Positions 30,738 through 38,251 of a stretch of DNA of 64,000 bases are shown piece after piece. This DNA is from Opitutaceae bacterium. GTDB taxonomy: Bacteria; Verrucomicrobiota; Verrucomicrobiia; Opitutales; Opitutaceae. Position numbers and translations under genes: made by a program. Location: contig JAUYAK010000006.1 in assembly GCA_030693515.1 (NCBI GenBank), forward strand, positions 62,001-126,000. Reading direction: 5' to 3'. How positions within the stretch are numbered: position 1 is the stretch's first letter; every line of letters starts with the position of its first letter. The notes beneath the pieces were generated by a model. It had not been told where the DNA came from. It made no database searches and was given only the letters and a program-made list of their open reading frames with translations.

Positions 30738-30872
30738 GTGGAGGGAATGACCAATGACTAATGCCCGATGTCCAATGAAGGCAATTCGTGCGGCAGGTTC
30801 GATGAGGTCGTGGTGTGTCATCGCCCACTCCTCGCTCGCCAGCGTGGCGCGGGTTTCTACGCTGGGCCGTCT

Positions 30873-33152
30873 ATGAACCCGCCCCTGTTCCGTCTGGTCC
30901 GTGCGTTTGCTGTGCTGGTCGGCCTCGCTTCCGGCGTCTTCGCCGCGGCGCCGGCAAAACCCAACATCGTCTTCATCTTCGTCGACGACCTCGGCTATTC
31001 CGATCTCGGGTGCTATGGCGCGAAGGATATCAAGACGCCCCATATCGACCGGCTCGCGGCGGAGGGGACGAAGTTCACCAGCTTCTACGTGGCGCAGGCG
31101 GTTTGCACCGCGTCGCGGGCGGCGTTTTTTACCGGCAGCTACGCCAACCGCGTGAGCATGAGCGGCGCGCTCAACCACACGAGCACCACCGGCCTGCACC
31201 AACGCGAGAAACTGCTCGCGCAATCGCTCAAGGACCAGGGCTACGCGACCGGCATGTTCGGCAAATGGCATCTCGGGCACCAGCCCCCGTTCCTGCCGAC
31301 GCGGCGCGGTTTCGACGAGTGGCTCGGCATCCCCTATTCCAACGACAACGGCCCGCTCCATCCCGTGACCAAGGGCATCCCCTCACTCCCGCTCTATCGG
31401 AACGAGGACGTGATCGAGCTCGATCCCGACCAGGCGCATTTCACGCGGCGGCTCACGGAGGGCGCGGTGTCGTTCATCGAGCGCAACCAGGACAAGCCGT
31501 TTTTCCTCTACGTGCCGCACATCATGCCGCACGTGCCGATCTTCGCCTCGGAAAAATTCAAGGGCACGAGCCAGCGCGGGCTCTACGGCGACGTCGTGCA
31601 GGAACTCGACTGGGGCGTGGGCGAAATCATGGCCGCACTCAAGCGCCTCGGCCTCGATGAAAAGACCCTCGTGATCTTCTCCAGCGACAACGGCCCCTTC
31701 CTCTCCTACGGCGAGCACGCCGGCTACGCCGCGCCGCTGCGCGAGGGCAAACTCACGACCTTCGAGGGCGGGATGCGCACGCCCTGCCTCGTGCGCTGGC
31801 CCGGTCGCGTGCCCGCGGGCCGCGTGAGCGACGAGCCGCTGAGCACGTTGGATCTGAACGTGACTTTCACGCGACTCGCCGGCGCTCCGCTGCCGGCCGT
31901 GAAACTCGACGGCACCGACATGCTGCCCCTGCTCACCGGCCAGCCGGGCGCCAAGGGTCGGGAGGAATTTTGGTTCTACTCCGGCGAAGAACTTCACGCC
32001 GTGCGCCTCGGCGACTGGAAACTCCACGTGCCGCACGAGTATCTCACGACCGCGGCCGAGCCCGGCCGGGGTGGCAAACCCTCCAACTGGGCCAACATGA
32101 AGCCCCAATCGATCGAGAACTCCGGCATCCGCGGCATCGCCAGTCGCCACGGCTACCGCGTGGAGAAGACCGAGCTCGCGCTCTACAACGTGCGCGCAGA
32201 TCCCACCGAAACGAACAACGTCGCGGCCGCCCATCCCGAGATCGTGGCGCGCCTTCAGACCCGCATCGCGGCCGCCCGCGCCGACCTGGGCGACAGCCTC
32301 ACGGGCGTGAAGGGCACCAACCTCCGCCCGATCGGCGATGTGCGCGCCGCGTTGCCCGCCGGTGTCAAGCGCGTCGCCAACCAGGAATTCAGCCGCCCGC
32401 CGACGGGTGCGTTGCTGCTCGATCTCTATCTGCCGGAGAAAACGCCGGCCCAGCCGCTCCCGGTCGTGCTCTGGATTCATGGCGGCGGTTGGAACAAGGG
32501 CAGCAAGGAAAACTGCCCGCACCTCTGGCTCGCCGCCGAGGGCTACGCGGTCGTGAGCATGGACTACCGCCTGAGCTACGCCGCCCAATGGCCCGCGCAG
32601 CTCGACGACGCGCGCGCCGCCGTGCGCTGGCTCCGCGCCAACGCCGCCCGCTACCACCTCGATCCGGCGCGCCTCGCCGTCTCCGGCGGATCGGCCGGCG
32701 GGCACATCGCCGCCGTGCTCGGCACCGCTGCGGCTCCGGCGGACGAGACCGCCTCCAGCCGCGTGCAGGCCGTGATCGATCTCTACGGGCCGAGCGATTT
32801 GCTCACGATGCCGCCCAACCTGCCCGGCCCCGGCAAGACCGACGCGGACCTCGCCAAGGCCAACGGGGCGAAACTCCTCGGCGGCATCGTCCGCGATCGC
32901 CCCGCGCTGGCGAAGCAGGCGAGCGCGCTGCACCACGTCTCGCGCGACGATCCGCCCTTCCTGATTCTGCACGGGGACAAGGACCCGCAGGTCCCGCTCG
33001 ACCAGAGCCAGCGCCTACACGCCCAGCTCAAGGAAGCGGGCGTGGCCTCCGAACTCGTCGTGCTCCCCGGCGCTGGTCACGGCGGCAAGGAATTCGCGAC
33101 CGACGAGGTGAAGGCGAAAATCCGGGCGTTCCTCACGCGGGCACTGAAGTAG
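30873..33152 (+). CDS. Exported two-domain enzyme: S1 sulfatase fused to alpha/beta-hydrolase esterase
   Basis: A 759-aa protein. The signal peptide covers about 1-25. The sulfatase domain (about 29-480) has NIVFIFVDDLGYSDLG (metal Asp pair), the modification site AVCTASRAAFFTG with Cys78 in a C-x-A-x-R form rather than the usual C-x-P-x-R, GMFGKWHLG and IFSSDNGP. The C-terminal domain (about 500-759) is an alpha/beta hydrolase: oxyanion loop WIHGGGWNKG, nucleophile GGSAGG, Asp in HGDKDPQVP and His in GAGHGG. The join is continuous with no internal stop. It would remove both sulfate and acyl groups from a polysaccharide, by inference. The start at 30873 begins the signal peptide. It is divergent from sufU. 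Confidence 0.9.
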   Translation: MNPPLFRLVRAFAVLVGLASGVFAAAPAKPNIVFIFVDDLGYSDLGCYGAKDIKTPHIDRLAAEGTKFTSFYVAQAVCTASRAAFFTGSYANRVSMSGALNHTSTTGLHQREKLLAQSLKDQGYATGMFGKWHLGHQPPFLPTRRGFDEWLGIPYSNDNGPLHPVTKGIPSLPLYRNEDVIELDPDQAHFTRRLTEGAVSFIERNQDKPFFLYVPHIMPHVPIFASEKFKGTSQRGLYGDVVQELDWGVGEIMAALKRLGLDEKTLVIFSSDNGPFLSYGEHAGYAAPLREGKLTTFEGGMRTPCLVRWPGRVPAGRVSDEPLSTLDLNVTFTRLAGAPLPAVKLDGTDMLPLLTGQPGAKGREEFWFYSGEELHAVRLGDWKLHVPHEYLTTAAEPGRGGKPSNWANMKPQSIENSGIRGIASRHGYRVEKTELALYNVRADPTETNNVAAAHPEIVARLQTRIAAARADLGDSLTGVKGTNLRPIGDVRAALPAGVKRVANQEFSRPPTGALLLDLYLPEKTPAQPLPVVLWIHGGGWNKGSKENCPHLWLAAEGYAVVSMDYRLSYAAQWPAQLDDARAAVRWLRANAARYHLDPARLAVSGGSAGGHIAAVLGTAAAPADETASSRVQAVIDLYGPSDLLTMPPNLPGPGKTDADLAKANGAKLLGGIVRDRPALAKQASALHHVSRDDPPFLILHGDKDPQVPLDQSQRLHAQLKEAGVASELVVLPGAGHGGKEFATDEVKAKIRAFLTRALK

Positions 33153-33163
33153 GGCAGGGCCTT

Positions 33164-33271
33164 GGGGTGGGGCCGCTTCTCCGCAGCGGCCTGAGTTCCA
33201 GCGTGTTGTTCACCCACGGTGGGCGAGTTCGGTTTGAACCCAGGCCGGCTGCGGAGAGCCGGCCCCACCCC
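33164..33271. repeat. Imperfect long inverted repeat, 24-nt arms
   Basis: Arm 33164-33187 pairs with 33248-33271 at 22 of 24 positions (mismatches at the centre of the arms); the core is GCTGCGGAGA...CGGCCCCACCCC. The arms enclose 60 bases. It follows the sulfatase-esterase gene closely and may end its transcript, but there is no T-tract. Confidence 0.6.
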
Positions 33272-33281
33272 GGAGCAACGC

Positions 33282-33336
33282 GAGCGGACTCCGTTCCGCG
33301 CCACGGCGGTCAGCGGAGTGACCGCCCTACCGTCCG
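33282..33336. repeat. Copy B of the dispersed intergenic repeat
   Basis: Matches 28897-28966 in two blocks separated by a shorter spacer. Its second block forms GGCGGTCA-GCGGAG-TGACCGCC, an 8-bp stem with a 6-nt loop. It ends three bases before the 60-bp direct repeat at 33339. Confidence 0.6.
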
Positions 33337-33398
33337 ATCCGCTCGATCCGGAAATCCTCCACGCGCAGGTGGCTGCGCACGGTGCGCAGGGCGAACCA
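33328..33398 (-). pseudogene. Remnant matching the 3' end of a DUF6250 gene (distal copy of a 60-bp direct repeat, 33339-33398)
   Basis: Positions 33339-33398 match 35736-35795 at 59 of 60 bases. The latter is the 3' end of the intact DUF6250 gene. In frame, the remnant reads GWFALRTVRSHLRVEDF then RIER, followed by IGR and a stop, whereas the intact gene ends PK and a stop. The only mismatch is synonymous (GCC for GCG, Ala). Homology stops sharply at both ends. No start codon or upstream DUF6250 coding sequence remains here. It may be an integration-site duplication left by arrival of the TPR gene, or the tail of a lost second DUF6250 gene. Confidence 0.75.
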
Positions 33399-33425
33399 GC
33401 CTTCTGCTCGCGCCCTGTGAGTGCC

Positions 33426-35654
33426 TCATTTCTTCGAGGCTTGGCGTGCCTGCATCGCTTCGTTCCGATATTTTTTGGCCCGTGAGTCGTTGGGATCAAG
33501 TTCAAGGGCCTTGTTGAAGTCCGAAATTGCCTCGTCGAACCGGCGCAGCCGGAGCTTTGCCATGCCCCGCAGCGTGTAGACACCGGAGTGCGACGTATTG
33601 TGTGCCAAGGTCGCATCGCAATCGGCAATGACGCCCTGATAGTCGGACAATGCTTGCTTTGCCCGAGCACGGTCAAAGTAGGCACTGCCCACCGTGGGGT
33701 TCAGGGAAACGAGTCGCTCCATTTCCGCCAAAGCGGCGCGAGCGTTGCCCTTCTTTATCAACGCGTCGCCCCGCCCGGCGATTGCGTAGGCAAGGTTTGG
33801 GTTGAGCGATAGGGCGCGATCAAAGTCTGCGATGGCGTCGTCCGGCTTTCCTTCCTGCGAGCTTATCTGGCCGCGCAAGTTGAGTGCATCAACGAGTCTT
33901 GGGTTGCCAGCCAATGCACGTTCCACCTCGGAGCGGCTTGTTGAAAAATCCGTTCGTTGAAAGCTAATCACGGCCCGGCCATAGTGCGCATCTGCGTGGC
34001 CGGGCTCTAGCTCCAGTGCCCGAGTGTAGTCGGCCAGCGCCGAATTTTGATCGCCCATTTTCCCGTATGCGTGGCCACGCGCTGCATAGACCGTGGCTGT
34101 GCCTGCGCCGAGTCGGATTACTTCGGTCAAATCGGTCATGGCCGCGAGCAAGTGGTCTTTTGCGTATAGGGCATAGCCGCGCATCGCCAAAACCGTGCCC
34201 TTCTCGTCCGTGCCAAGGTCGATCGCGTGCGATAGGTCGGTGATCGCCGCGTCAAGTTCCCCAATCCTGTAGCGGGATTCGCCTCGGTAGAAATGGGCCT
34301 TCGGATCCATAGGATTGAGTGCGATAGCCTCATTGAAGGCCTGTATCGCGCCGACGAAGTCCGAGCTGAGACCCCGTGCGACGCCAAGATAGCGAATGAA
34401 CTCGGCGTTGGTCGGTTCCAGCGTGATGGCCATCTCCACGTCGGCGATGCCGTCTGCAATGTCGCCGGCCTGCACTTTGGCCGATCCGCGATTGAAAAAC
34501 GTGACTGCATGCGGCCGCGCGCGAATTGCCTCATCGTAGTCGGCGATCGCTTCACGAAACTGCTTCAACCTGGCTCGAACCCTGCCGCGGTCGGCTAGGG
34601 CCGCCGGCACATCCTGCCGTAGGTCGAGGGCCCGCTGAATGTCGGCCAGTGCCTCCGGGTATTGCCGCATCTCAACATGCCATTCTGAGCGGGAGAGGAA
34701 CGCAGCTGCCGTAGCAGCGTCCAATTCGATCGCCTTGTCGAAGTCGGCTTTGGAGCCGGACAGATTGCCGAGCTTGAGTTTCGCCGAGCCTCGAAATCGG
34801 AACGATTCTGCGGCAGTCGCATCAAGCGCAATCGCCCGGTCGAAATCAACGATGGCGTCGGCGAAGCGTTTCATCCGAAACATCGTCATCGCGCGGGCGT
34901 GAAACGATTCGGAAGCCGCGGGTGCCTTGGCCAAGGCCAGCTCGGCATACGCCAGTGCGCCCTCAAGATCTCCGAAGTTGCGCTTAAGCTGTGACACCAA
35001 CGAGTAGATGTCCGTGCGGCCCGAACCGTTGGCCAGCGCGCGTTCGATGTCTCGCAACGCACCCTCGGGGTCACCTGATTCGTTTCGAGCGTATGCGCGT
35101 TCGATGTAGCCATCGACGTAGCTCGGATCGAGTTCCAAGGCACGGTTTGCGTCTGCCAGCGCGCCCTTGAGATCGTTGGACCATCTTTTCGCAAAACTCC
35201 TGCCACCGTAGGCGCCGGCCCAGTCGGGTCGGGCTGCAATCACGAGGGTGAAGTCTGAGATGGCTTCGGCATATCGCCGTAGGCGATTGCGACTGTTGGC
35301 CCGGTGGTATCGGACTTGAGTGGCTGCCGGGTCAATCTGAAGAATCCGATCAAAGTCCGCCACAGCGCCCGCATCGTCGCCGCGTGCGACCTTGGCGAGG
35401 CCGCTTAGGAACAATGCCGCAATCTCCTCGGCCTTCGATGTGATGGGTGAAACGCCCGTGGAGCTAGTCGCCGATGAAGCTGCGGCTGCGGCCGTGGTTG
35501 CAGGCACTGAGGCCGCGCCGGCTGTGGGCTGAGGTGGGGGTGGCGTCGCGCAGCCGGCCAGCAGTCCGAGAAGCGCTGGAATAGCGGATGCCACACCCGT
35601 CCTGTGGGAAAATGTCTCGAACGTCTTTATCCAGATCCGAGAGTTTGTCGTCAT
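33426..35654 (-). CDS. Large TPR-repeat lipoprotein, probably acquired
   Basis: A 742-aa protein. A lipoprotein signal ends in lipobox LAGC (Cys at about 35), followed by a Pro/Ala/Thr/Ser-rich linker to about 70. The rest is a solenoid of roughly nineteen 34-residue tetratricopeptide repeats, recognisable by recurring DFDRAI..DP / RG...L / Y.EAI.D. patterns up to the C-terminus. TPR solenoids bind partner proteins; the anchor places it at an outer or inner membrane facing the periplasm. GC is lower than in the neighbours (35 of 60 at 34741-34800 against 48 of 60 at 32641-32700, hand counts). It is bracketed by a 60-bp direct repeat. Partner and function are unknown. Confidence 0.9.
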   Translation of the reverse strand: MTTNSRIWIKTFETFSHRTGVASAIPALLGLLAGCATPPPPQPTAGAASVPATTAAAAASSATSSTGVSPITSKAEEIAALFLSGLAKVARGDDAGAVADFDRILQIDPAATQVRYHRANSRNRLRRYAEAISDFTLVIAARPDWAGAYGGRSFAKRWSNDLKGALADANRALELDPSYVDGYIERAYARNESGDPEGALRDIERALANGSGRTDIYSLVSQLKRNFGDLEGALAYAELALAKAPAASESFHARAMTMFRMKRFADAIVDFDRAIALDATAAESFRFRGSAKLKLGNLSGSKADFDKAIELDAATAAAFLSRSEWHVEMRQYPEALADIQRALDLRQDVPAALADRGRVRARLKQFREAIADYDEAIRARPHAVTFFNRGSAKVQAGDIADGIADVEMAITLEPTNAEFIRYLGVARGLSSDFVGAIQAFNEAIALNPMDPKAHFYRGESRYRIGELDAAITDLSHAIDLGTDEKGTVLAMRGYALYAKDHLLAAMTDLTEVIRLGAGTATVYAARGHAYGKMGDQNSALADYTRALELEPGHADAHYGRAVISFQRTDFSTSRSEVERALAGNPRLVDALNLRGQISSQEGKPDDAIADFDRALSLNPNLAYAIAGRGDALIKKGNARAALAEMERLVSLNPTVGSAYFDRARAKQALSDYQGVIADCDATLAHNTSHSGVYTLRGMAKLRLRRFDEAISDFNKALELDPNDSRAKKYRNEAMQARQASKK

Positions 35655-35726
35655 AGAAACATGCGATCGAGAGCGGTGGATTGCTTGGCGTGATTGCCCA
35701 ATGCACGCAATTGCGCTCGTGATGGC

Positions 35727-36410
35727 CTATTTCGGCCGCTCGATCCGGAAATCCTCCACGCGCAGGTGGCTGCGCACGGTGCGCAGCGCGAACCATCCGG
35801 CCGTGAGCGGCGCGGGATCGGTGAACGTGAAGATGCGTTCGCCGTCACGCCAGAACTCGGCGCGGCCGTCGCGCGCGACGAGGCGGATGCGGTAGGGGCG
35901 GTTGCCCTCGAGTAGGAATTCTTTGGCGGACAAATCGTGCTCCGGCAGCAGCGGGCGGGCGGCGGTGCCGTCGTAGCGGCGGAAGCGGGTTGTCGTGTTG
36001 TCGTTTCCGCCGTAGCCGACGTAGTAGGTCAGCAGCGAGTCGTAGTCGGAAAACTTGCCGCTCCGGGCCTGCCCCGGCGCAAAGGGCGCGGCCGTCGATC
36101 GCGGGTCGGCGGCCATCCAGAAACAGTTCACATCCGACACGCGGTCGCGCGCCCCGCCGCGATCGACGACGGTGACGGTGTAGCTGATGGCGACGGGAGT
36201 GGTGAGCTTTTCCCGCCACCAGACCGTGCAACCGGCGGCATCCTCGATCTCGATGACGCCATCGCGGATCGTGACGGTGCCGCCGGGCATCTGCTCGACG
36301 GCCCATTTTTCGGGCACCGCGAAGTTCGCCCGGGTCTCGGCGGCGCGCGTCTGCGAACACACGAGCGCCCCGAGCAGGAGCAGGCGAGGGAGGAGCGTCG
36401 AGGGGCTCAC
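35727..36410 (-). CDS. Exported DUF6250 protein (concanavalin-like fold, carbohydrate-related)
   Basis: A 227-aa protein with a signal peptide (about 1-23). It shows the features I associate with the DUF6250 family: GCTVWWREKLTTPVAISYTV, DRVSDVNCFWMAADPR, YYVGYGGNDNTTTRFRRYDG and a late GWFALRTVRSHLRVEDF. Members lie next to polysaccharide lyases and sulfatases and resemble YesU-like beta-sandwich proteins; no activity is known to me. Its start overlaps the stop of the upstream sulfatase gene by 4 nt, so the two are translationally coupled and likely act on the same polysaccharide. Its 3' end (35736-35795) is duplicated beyond the TPR gene. Confidence 0.8.
   Translation of the reverse strand: MSPSTLLPRLLLLGALVCSQTRAAETRANFAVPEKWAVEQMPGGTVTIRDGVIEIEDAAGCTVWWREKLTTPVAISYTVTVVDRGGARDRVSDVNCFWMAADPRSTAAPFAPGQARSGKFSDYDSLLTYYVGYGGNDNTTTRFRRYDGTAARPLLPEHDLSAKEFLLEGNRPYRIRLVARDGRAEFWRDGERIFTFTDPAPLTAGWFALRTVRSHLRVEDFRIERPK
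35736..35795. repeat. 60-bp direct repeat, copy within the DUF6250 gene 3' end
   Basis: Proximal copy of the repeat whose distal copy is at 33339-33398 (59 of 60 identical, the first 51 bases without a mismatch). The copies have the same orientation and bracket the TPR lipoprotein gene. This copy supplies the last codons of the DUF6250 gene except the final PK and stop. Confidence 0.9.
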
Positions 36411-38251
36411 TTTTTCAGCGTCAGCGTGATCTGGCGCACGTCCATCACGCTGGCACCGGGAATCTCCAAGGCGCGGAGGGTGAGGAGGCCGCGGCCTTTT
36501 TCGAGGCGCATTGTGCCGAGCGCGAGCGGGCGGAAGGGTTTCATCTTCGACTCGCCGGCCGGGCGCGGGAGCGTGTCTTGGTTGGTGTAGAGCGGGGGAT
36601 TCCAGCCGGGCGCGACTTTGCCGGCGAGTTTCGCGCCGTGGAAGGCCAGCTCGATGGTCGAGCCGGCGTCGGGCTCGGGGCAGGTGTAGTCGATGACGAC
36701 CTCGTAATCGCCGGTGGTGGCGACCGCGACGTCCCAGGTTAGTTTGTCCGCCAGGCTCGTCCAGTTGACGAAGTAGGAGCTGTTGGGCGCGCTGGAGCTG
36801 CGGCGCACCGTGCCGTGCGGCACGCCGTCTCGCGCGGGCAGAAAGGTCGCGGGAAAGGCGGCGTAGCCCACGGTATAGGGCCGGTCGTCCGCCGGCAGAA
36901 TTGAGCCGCCGGCATTGGTCTTCTTTTTGCCCTTGGCGTTTTTGGTGTCCGGTTCGGCCGGGGGCGCGCCAAACACGTCTTTGCGCCAGGTGGCGGCGGC
37001 TTCGGTTAGTTGCTTCGCGATTGCGGGCTGATCGGCGGCGATGTCGCGCTGCTGGCCGGGGTCGGCGACCATGTCGAAGAGTTTGCCCGCGGCGTCGAGG
37101 CGGTGCGTCTGCGAGCGGACGCTGAGGTTGCCGTTCCAGCTGTTGAAGATCAGGCGGTCCGGCCAGTCGGTCTTTTTCCCCAGGAGGAGCGGCGAGAGAT
37201 CGCGGCCATCAAGCGGGGCGGCGCCGACGCGCGGGATGCCGGCGAGCGCGGTGAGCGTGGGCAGCAGATCGATCGCACCGGTGATTTGCGGGATGCGCTG
37301 GCCGGCGGCGATCTTCGCGGGCCAGCGGAGGTAGCCGACGGAGCGGACGCCGCCCTCGTCGGTGCTGCCCTTGCGGTTTTTCAGGCCGCCATTCCAGCGG
37401 AAGGAATTGGGGCCGTTGTCGGAGAAGTAGAACACGATGGTGTTGTCCGCGAGCTTGAGCTCGTCGAGGCGCGCGAGGATGCGGCCGACGTTCCAATCCT
37501 GATTCTCGATCATCGCGAGGGCGCAGCGGGTATGGTCGTCGTTCTCCTGATCGGGGATCGTGGCGCGTTGGGTGAGCGTTTTGTTTTTGAAACGCTGCCA
37601 GTCGGCGTCGGGCACGGTCCAGGGCGAGTGTGGGGTGGTGAAAGGGACGTAGCAGAGGAAAGGCTGGTCCTTGTTTTTCGTGATGAACTGGAGAGCACGG
37701 TCGGTGCACACATCGACGATGTAGCCGGTGGTGCGGACCATGCGGCCGTTGTCGTCGAGCGGGGCGTCGAAGTATTCGCCCCAGTGGCCGGAGGTGTGGC
37801 CCAGATAGTCGTCGAAGCCGCGGGCGCGGGGGTGGTAGGGCCATTGCGTGCCGTTGTGCCATTTGCCAAAGGCGCCCGTGGCGTAGCCCGCGGCCTTGAA
37901 GGCATCGGCGATGGTGCGCTCGTCGAGATTGAGGCGCTCCATGCCGGTGGAGACGCCGCGCACGCCGCCGCGCGCATGCCAGCGGCCGGTGAGAAACTCC
38001 GCCCGGGTCGGCGCGCACACGGGCTGCACGTAAAAGTGATCGAGCGAGGCGCCGCCGCGCGCGATGCGGTCGATGTTGGGCGTGGCGACCTGCCCGTTGC
38101 CGGAGAATCCGTAATCACCCCAGCCGGCGTCGTCGGCGAGGAGGACCACGATGTTGGGCCGGGCCGGCGTGGCGGCCGGGGCGGAGGTCAGGCCGGCGAA
38201 AATTGCGAGGAGCGCGAGGGCGCGAACAAGACGGGGAAAACGGGGAGGCAT
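36407..38251 (-). CDS. Exported S1 family sulfatase with C-terminal beta domain
   Basis: A 614-aa enzyme. The signal peptide covers about 1-27. The sulfatase domain (about 31-440) has NIVVLLADDAGWGDYG (metal Asp pair), the formylglycine site VCAPTRAEFLTG with Cys79 in canonical C-x-P-x-R, GAFGKWHNG and FYFSDNGP. Residues about 490-614 form an added domain (TWDVAVATTGDYEVVIDYTC...) of the carbohydrate-binding or DUF5077-like type that follows many verrucomicrobial sulfatases. It removes sulfate esters from a polysaccharide after maturation by a formylglycine-generating enzyme not seen here. Its stop overlaps the DUF6250 start by 4 nt. Confidence 0.92.
   Translation of the reverse strand: MPPRFPRLVRALALLAIFAGLTSAPAATPARPNIVVLLADDAGWGDYGFSGNGQVATPNIDRIARGGASLDHFYVQPVCAPTRAEFLTGRWHARGGVRGVSTGMERLNLDERTIADAFKAAGYATGAFGKWHNGTQWPYHPRARGFDDYLGHTSGHWGEYFDAPLDDNGRMVRTTGYIVDVCTDRALQFITKNKDQPFLCYVPFTTPHSPWTVPDADWQRFKNKTLTQRATIPDQENDDHTRCALAMIENQDWNVGRILARLDELKLADNTIVFYFSDNGPNSFRWNGGLKNRKGSTDEGGVRSVGYLRWPAKIAAGQRIPQITGAIDLLPTLTALAGIPRVGAAPLDGRDLSPLLLGKKTDWPDRLIFNSWNGNLSVRSQTHRLDAAGKLFDMVADPGQQRDIAADQPAIAKQLTEAAATWRKDVFGAPPAEPDTKNAKGKKKTNAGGSILPADDRPYTVGYAAFPATFLPARDGVPHGTVRRSSSAPNSSYFVNWTSLADKLTWDVAVATTGDYEVVIDYTCPEPDAGSTIELAFHGAKLAGKVAPGWNPPLYTNQDTLPRPAGESKMKPFRPLALGTMRLEKGRGLLTLRALEIPGASVMDVRQITLTLKK

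Follow-up and report, generated by a model that had tools for sequence, protein, structure and literature searches.

How did a single gene with no recombinase beside it come to lie between two copies of its neighbour's 3′ end? The question is raised by a locus in an Opitutaceae bacterium (phylum Verrucomicrobiota; assembly GCA_030693515.1), where a gene for a TPR-repeat protein is bracketed by a direct repeat of the end of an adjacent DUF6250 gene. We analysed the surrounding 64,000 nucleotides (contig JAUYAK010000006.1, positions 62,001 to 126,000; this whole stretch is the window, and positions are counted from its first letter) and compared the locus with other parts of the genome and with related genomes.

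The repeat pair and the DNA between its copies

The first-pass annotation had reported a match of 59 of 60 bases, in the same orientation, between 33339-33398 and 35736-35795, and had assigned the inner copy to the last codons of the DUF6250 gene. Both statements hold: the match extends to 63 bases (33339-33401 and 35736-35798, 61 of 63 identical, with a distance of 2,397 bases between the copies), and the inner copy lies within the DUF6250 gene. The mismatch described as synonymous is indeed so, as is a second one that appears over the longer match (GGA/GGC and GCG/GCC in the DUF6250 frame). The 63-mer is DUF6250 coding sequence that is also found in genomes without the insert, which speaks against an integron attC site. 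A whole-genome search with the 60-mer, suggested at the outset as a way to find other genes flanked by it, matched only the copies at 33339 and 35736, with no third copy. The locus is laid out as follows, G018 and G016 being two relatives that have the same neighbourhood:

30768..33152, plus strand: sulfatase-esterase gene (open reading frame; Sulfatase PF00884, BD-FAE PF20434), directly after DUF6250 at the empty site and a neighbour also in G018 and G016
33284..33338: native flank downstream of DUF6250, with the original stop codon at 33328-33330 (minus strand), from the alignment of 33284-33401 to G016
33339..33401: outer 63-base copy, the original DUF6250 end; 33342-33401 is identical to G018 at 60 of 60 bases
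33402..35735: inserted DNA, not at this site in G018 or G016; one copy in the genome; 60.4% G+C; no recombinase gene seen
33426..35654, minus strand: TPR-repeat gene, 742 amino acids (open reading frame, TPR families), with a lipoprotein-like start (LLAGC, lipobox-like by eye)
35727..35735, minus strand: new last codons and stop of DUF6250 (PK* replacing IGR*), from the insert, as read from the sequence
35736..35798: inner 63-base copy, inside the working DUF6250 gene; both differences from the outer copy are synonymous
35727..36410, minus strand: DUF6250 gene (PF19763, E 9e-68), the insertion target, still open
36407..38251, minus strand: sulfatase gene (PF00884), upstream of DUF6250, a conserved neighbour also in G018 and G016

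Between the copies, one gene of lower G+C and no recombinase had been noted, and this description proved accurate. The single 742-codon gene on the minus strand matches TPR families only, no recombinase gene was seen in the insert, and the G+C content of the insert is 60.4%, compared with 67.1% for the window and 66.2% over 1.77 Mb of the genome. A transposon is not supported, as the insert has no transposase among its open reading frames and family matches, and no inverted-repeat pair joining its ends appears in the repeat listing.

Among 94 relatives, with at most 11 candidates scored per genome, the best-scoring match to the TPR protein was 32% identical over 479 residues and none exceeded 38%. 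A DNA search of 372 genomes of the order returned one 41-base match besides the gene itself, matches to plasmids and phages were all under 60%, and pattern-based searches for close relatives found none in named genomes or viral contigs. By these sequence comparisons the cargo gene looks foreign and without a close relative.

Beyond the outer copy, the spacer 33156-33283 carries 24-base inverted arms (33164-33187 and 33248-33271) and is missing from G016 at this site. It belongs to a dispersed hairpin repeat with 71 matches in the genome, itself included.

The same site in relatives

DUF6250 matches were present in 40 of 95 genomes, this one included, and the best of them outside this genome were in G018 (92% at the protein level) and G016 (81%), whose loci correspond to JAEUHC010000019.1 and JAEUHB010000220.1, both Opitutaceae metagenome assemblies. 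In both relatives the genes run sulfatase, DUF6250, sulfatase-esterase, the same order as here, with the DUF6250 gene end present once and the TPR gene missing. An empty site with one repeat copy, which the first-pass annotation had named as support for insertion, is thus found in two relatives. Because G018 and G016 share the gene order, with one repeat copy and no TPR gene, the TPR gene is, as judged from these alignments, an insertion near the DUF6250 end. In approximately 2.4 kb of sequence flanking the repeat, identity between this genome and G018 is 89.7%, and each of them shares about 83% with G016, which therefore serves as the outgroup; a single gain of the TPR gene in this lineage would be the simplest history.

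The flank and the outer copy together (33284-33401) align without a break, at 89% identity, to the DUF6250 end of G016, which identifies the outer copy as the original gene end, terminated by the stop at 33328-33330. This copy had been taken for an orphan; it is real but not stray. The inner copy is the one that now completes DUF6250, with the last two codons and the stop contributed by the insert. The outer copy is identical to G018 at 60 of 60 bases and the inner copy is not, a contrast that involves too few differences to tell whether bases mutated later or one of the copies came from a donor.

These alignments also bear on a reading that the first-pass annotation had left open, in which the outer copy is what remains of a second, older DUF6250 gene and the TPR gene lies between former paralogues. 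That both differences between the copies are synonymous would suit such a remnant, but G018 and G016, which share the locus, each carry a single DUF6250 gene and a single copy of its end, and the outer copy runs into native flank that is found in G016. We consider this history extremely improbable.

Similar loci elsewhere in the genome

Along 124 kb collinear with G018 there were four clean insertions or deletions, with flanking repeats only at the TPR locus. A survey for direct repeats (length 40 to 400 bases, identity of 85% or more, spacing 0.2 to 15 kb) covered 1,771,575 of 6,646,699 bases (27% of one genome) and yielded 18 pairs at 15 loci, by our own grouping. Eight of the 15 look like insertions between gene-end copies, the repeats being unrelated to one another and 41 to about 180 bases long: TPR/DUF6250, dgt, two on C58, two on C36, one on C79 and rlmN on C42. 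The other seven were left uncounted, comprising TonB-receptor paralogues (C58:130416), repeats with 5 to 11 copies (C89, C42:68674, C108 and C6) and unresolved cases (C58:115509 and C128). Toxin-antitoxin-like cargo was present at six of the eight insertion-like loci, with Pfam support for four. The clearest cases are those of dgt, a pyruvate-carboxylase-like gene, three PIN loci and a SASA esterase.

At dgt (L125:15079-16439; contig C33:161079-162439) the gene end occurs three times around two small gene pairs, its last 117 bases recurring at 95% identity and, in shortened form, at 86 to 88%. The pairs have no Pfam or NCBIfam match and resemble toxin-antitoxin pairs by eye. The dgt gene of G016 has one copy of its end with the downstream gene directly after it. 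The dgt gene is present in 68 of 95 genomes. Among 30 of its loci with at most 1.5 kb of downstream sequence, a repeat of its end was found only in this genome, apart from a 19-base match in L273.

Repeats of a pyruvate-carboxylase-like gene bracket a PemK-type toxin, and the outer flank there matches nothing in the G018 locus; three insertion-like loci surround PIN-domain genes. The 122-base end of a SASA esterase gene brackets a GSDH-cytochrome c gene, and at the SASA esterase of G018 the two matches overlap in one copy of 117 bases. A GSDH relative also lies next to a TonB-receptor-like stretch in G013 and G019, as at the SASA locus here, so loss of GSDH in G018 is possible. At rlmN the gene body has kept its native start, which does not fit a plain duplication; the HicB-like gene at this locus was named by eye and has no Pfam or NCBIfam match. 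One-copy sites were seen at three loci only: TPR/DUF6250, dgt, for which G016 shows one, and the SASA esterase, for which G018 does. In 220 kb of G018, no repeat pair was found. At the start of rlmN, where this genome has the HicB-like gene, G018 (L338:2125-2802) carries a ParE-type pair, beyond which 59 bases are repeated at 81% identity.

Working outward from the cargo, we found 20 matches to the PIN family in the genome, a set that does not include the PIN gene on C79. Direct repeats of 76 to 174 bases flank four of these 20 loci, compared with 7 of 1,500 random windows, under a requirement of 80% identity or more, a length of 40 to 400 bases and a score of 50 bits. The associated Fisher p of 7e-6 is indicative only, because these criteria were chosen in the light of a first run, the repeat survey had already turned up two of the four bracketed loci, two of the seven control windows overlap one of them and two of the 20 loci have short flanks. 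The first run, under looser rules, gave 4 of 20 compared with 17 of 600 at 80 bits or more. Of the two new loci, one (L354:1284-2580) holds a PIN-type pair flanked by two copies of the start of a Vsr endonuclease gene, with an MvaI/BcnI-type restriction gene as its neighbour; the other, on C106, holds a Phd-PIN pair. Repeat sequences differ between loci, and the insert ends have no common motif by eye.

Mode of entry and comparison with known insertions

On balance, we think it probable that the TPR gene entered as a small foreign DNA piece by insertion with long target duplication. On entry of the foreign fragment, 63 bases of the DUF6250 end would have been duplicated, one copy staying with the gene body, which would have gained its new stop codon from the insert, and the other staying with the original downstream flank. 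The step may have been illegitimate: either a long staggered break was filled in on both strands, or a repair fork restarted upstream of its break, with the fragment captured in the process. Either a staggered break or a fork restart would make the duplication variable in length, and the surviving cases would be those that leave the target gene working.

In keeping with duplication of the target, the insert is absent from the related site, the repeat is single there and its length varies at other loci (41 to about 180 bases). The single small cargo, the variable duplication, the unrelated targets and the open target gene do not indicate a single recombinase. We found no match to Ku in the genome, with a control search matching in 1 of 14 named genomes, and the usual bacterial end-joining route is therefore unlikely. 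Against a plain duplication stands the identity of the outer but not the inner copy to G018, and one copy could have come with the cargo.

That last point leads to a Campbell-type single crossover, in which the resident gene recombined homologously with a circle that held the TPR gene together with a stretch of a near-identical DUF6250 end. It would yield the same geometry, and the contrast between an outer copy identical to G018 over 60 bases and an inner copy with two synonymous differences looks as if one of the two came from a related donor. The donor itself would have to carry the TPR gene beside a DUF6250 end, but none of the DUF6250 loci tested does so, and no close relative of the TPR gene was found in the 94 relatives, the 372-genome DNA search, the named genomes or the viral contigs. 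A crossover would also only move an existing arrangement, leaving the origin of the first one unexplained. We regard this route as unlikely, although a similar one is favoured for transposed genes of Arabidopsis in PMC2869330, whose authors prefer excised circles and homologous recombination to target duplication. The cases in that paper resemble the TPR locus in being single genes between genic direct repeats, which correspond to the orthologous target site and measure 30 to 287 bp in the tables; they differ in being plant nuclear genes.

Integrative elements that enter gene 3′ ends restore the gene end with incoming DNA and leave direct repeats. A small element of this kind, integrated site-specifically at the DUF6250 end by a recombinase acting in trans, had been the leading proposal of the first-pass annotation, and the restored gene end, the direct repeats of about 60 bases and an insert devoid of a recombinase gene would agree with it. 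Unlike such elements, however, the insert has no integrase gene, and neither reuse of the site at the loci tested nor a common core was found. The repeated DUF6250 end was seen nearby at none of 36 loci from relatives, three of them uninformative. Among loci from named genomes, of which the best 80 of 152 found were tested, a 15-base match in L188 was the sole exception; this set overlaps with that of the relatives. As the DUF6250 end is not repeated at these loci, an integrase preferring this site is disfavoured. The 60-mer occurs nowhere else in the genome, and the loci of the same form carry unrelated repeats of differing length, which would not be expected of one recombinase or core site. 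These observations turn against the proposal, and we now hold site-specific integration to be very unlikely.

Because the source genome is in 130 contigs and both records that show the empty site are metagenome assemblies, we also considered whether a foreign fragment was joined at the repeat by misassembly. Such an artefact would require both junctions to be wrong at the same 63-mer, though the copies differ at two bases, and the same form recurs at other loci; the chance of it seems minimal.

The preferred reading, insertion with long target duplication, has a counterpart in the restriction-modification genes of Helicobacter pylori (Nobusato et al. 2000, as cited in PMC3031569, PMC1643837, PMC3874152 and PMC4978471; the topic also appears in the reference lists of PMC2654758 and PMC11708052). 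The target duplications are given as in the order of 100 bp in the relevant passage of PMC3874152, and that of PMC4978471 raises a possibly site-specific manner for its own case, for which the loci here offer no support. As those sources describe them, the H. pylori cases share with ours a gene inserted relative to a related genome, long target repeats of variable length and no tie to a mobile element. They differ in phylum, ours being Verrucomicrobiota, and in cargo, here a TPR lipoprotein gene and elsewhere in the genome toxin-antitoxin pairs; the restriction-modification cargo of the published cases, as cited, is not matched here, and we take that cargo to be usual rather than defining. The TPR locus seems to belong to a known, though still poorly understood, form of single-gene entry into the chromosome.

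We tentatively suggest that in this Opitutaceae genus long, variable target duplication may be a regular route by which small cargo enters conserved gene ends without a mobile element of its own. The cargo would be chiefly type II toxin-antitoxin pairs, together with ordinary genes, only events that leave the target working would persist, and self-retention of toxin-antitoxin pairs could explain their dominance. In the literature searched, to which the original H. pylori paper did not belong, there was no description of toxin-antitoxin pairs with long target duplication, which does not imply its absence in print. The cases in this genome bear on the question of how toxin-antitoxin pairs and lone genes reach chromosomes with no mobile element to carry them: their duplication length, junctions and age are measurable, and close relatives retain the empty site of some. 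They would also broaden an insertion form that the sources cited above report for restriction-modification genes, in both cargo and phylum.

A separate repeat touches the contig structure of the genome. Approximately 140 bases at a contig end (L290:17754-17894) recur nearly identically at or near the ends of several other contigs, where a multi-copy element probably breaks the assembly.
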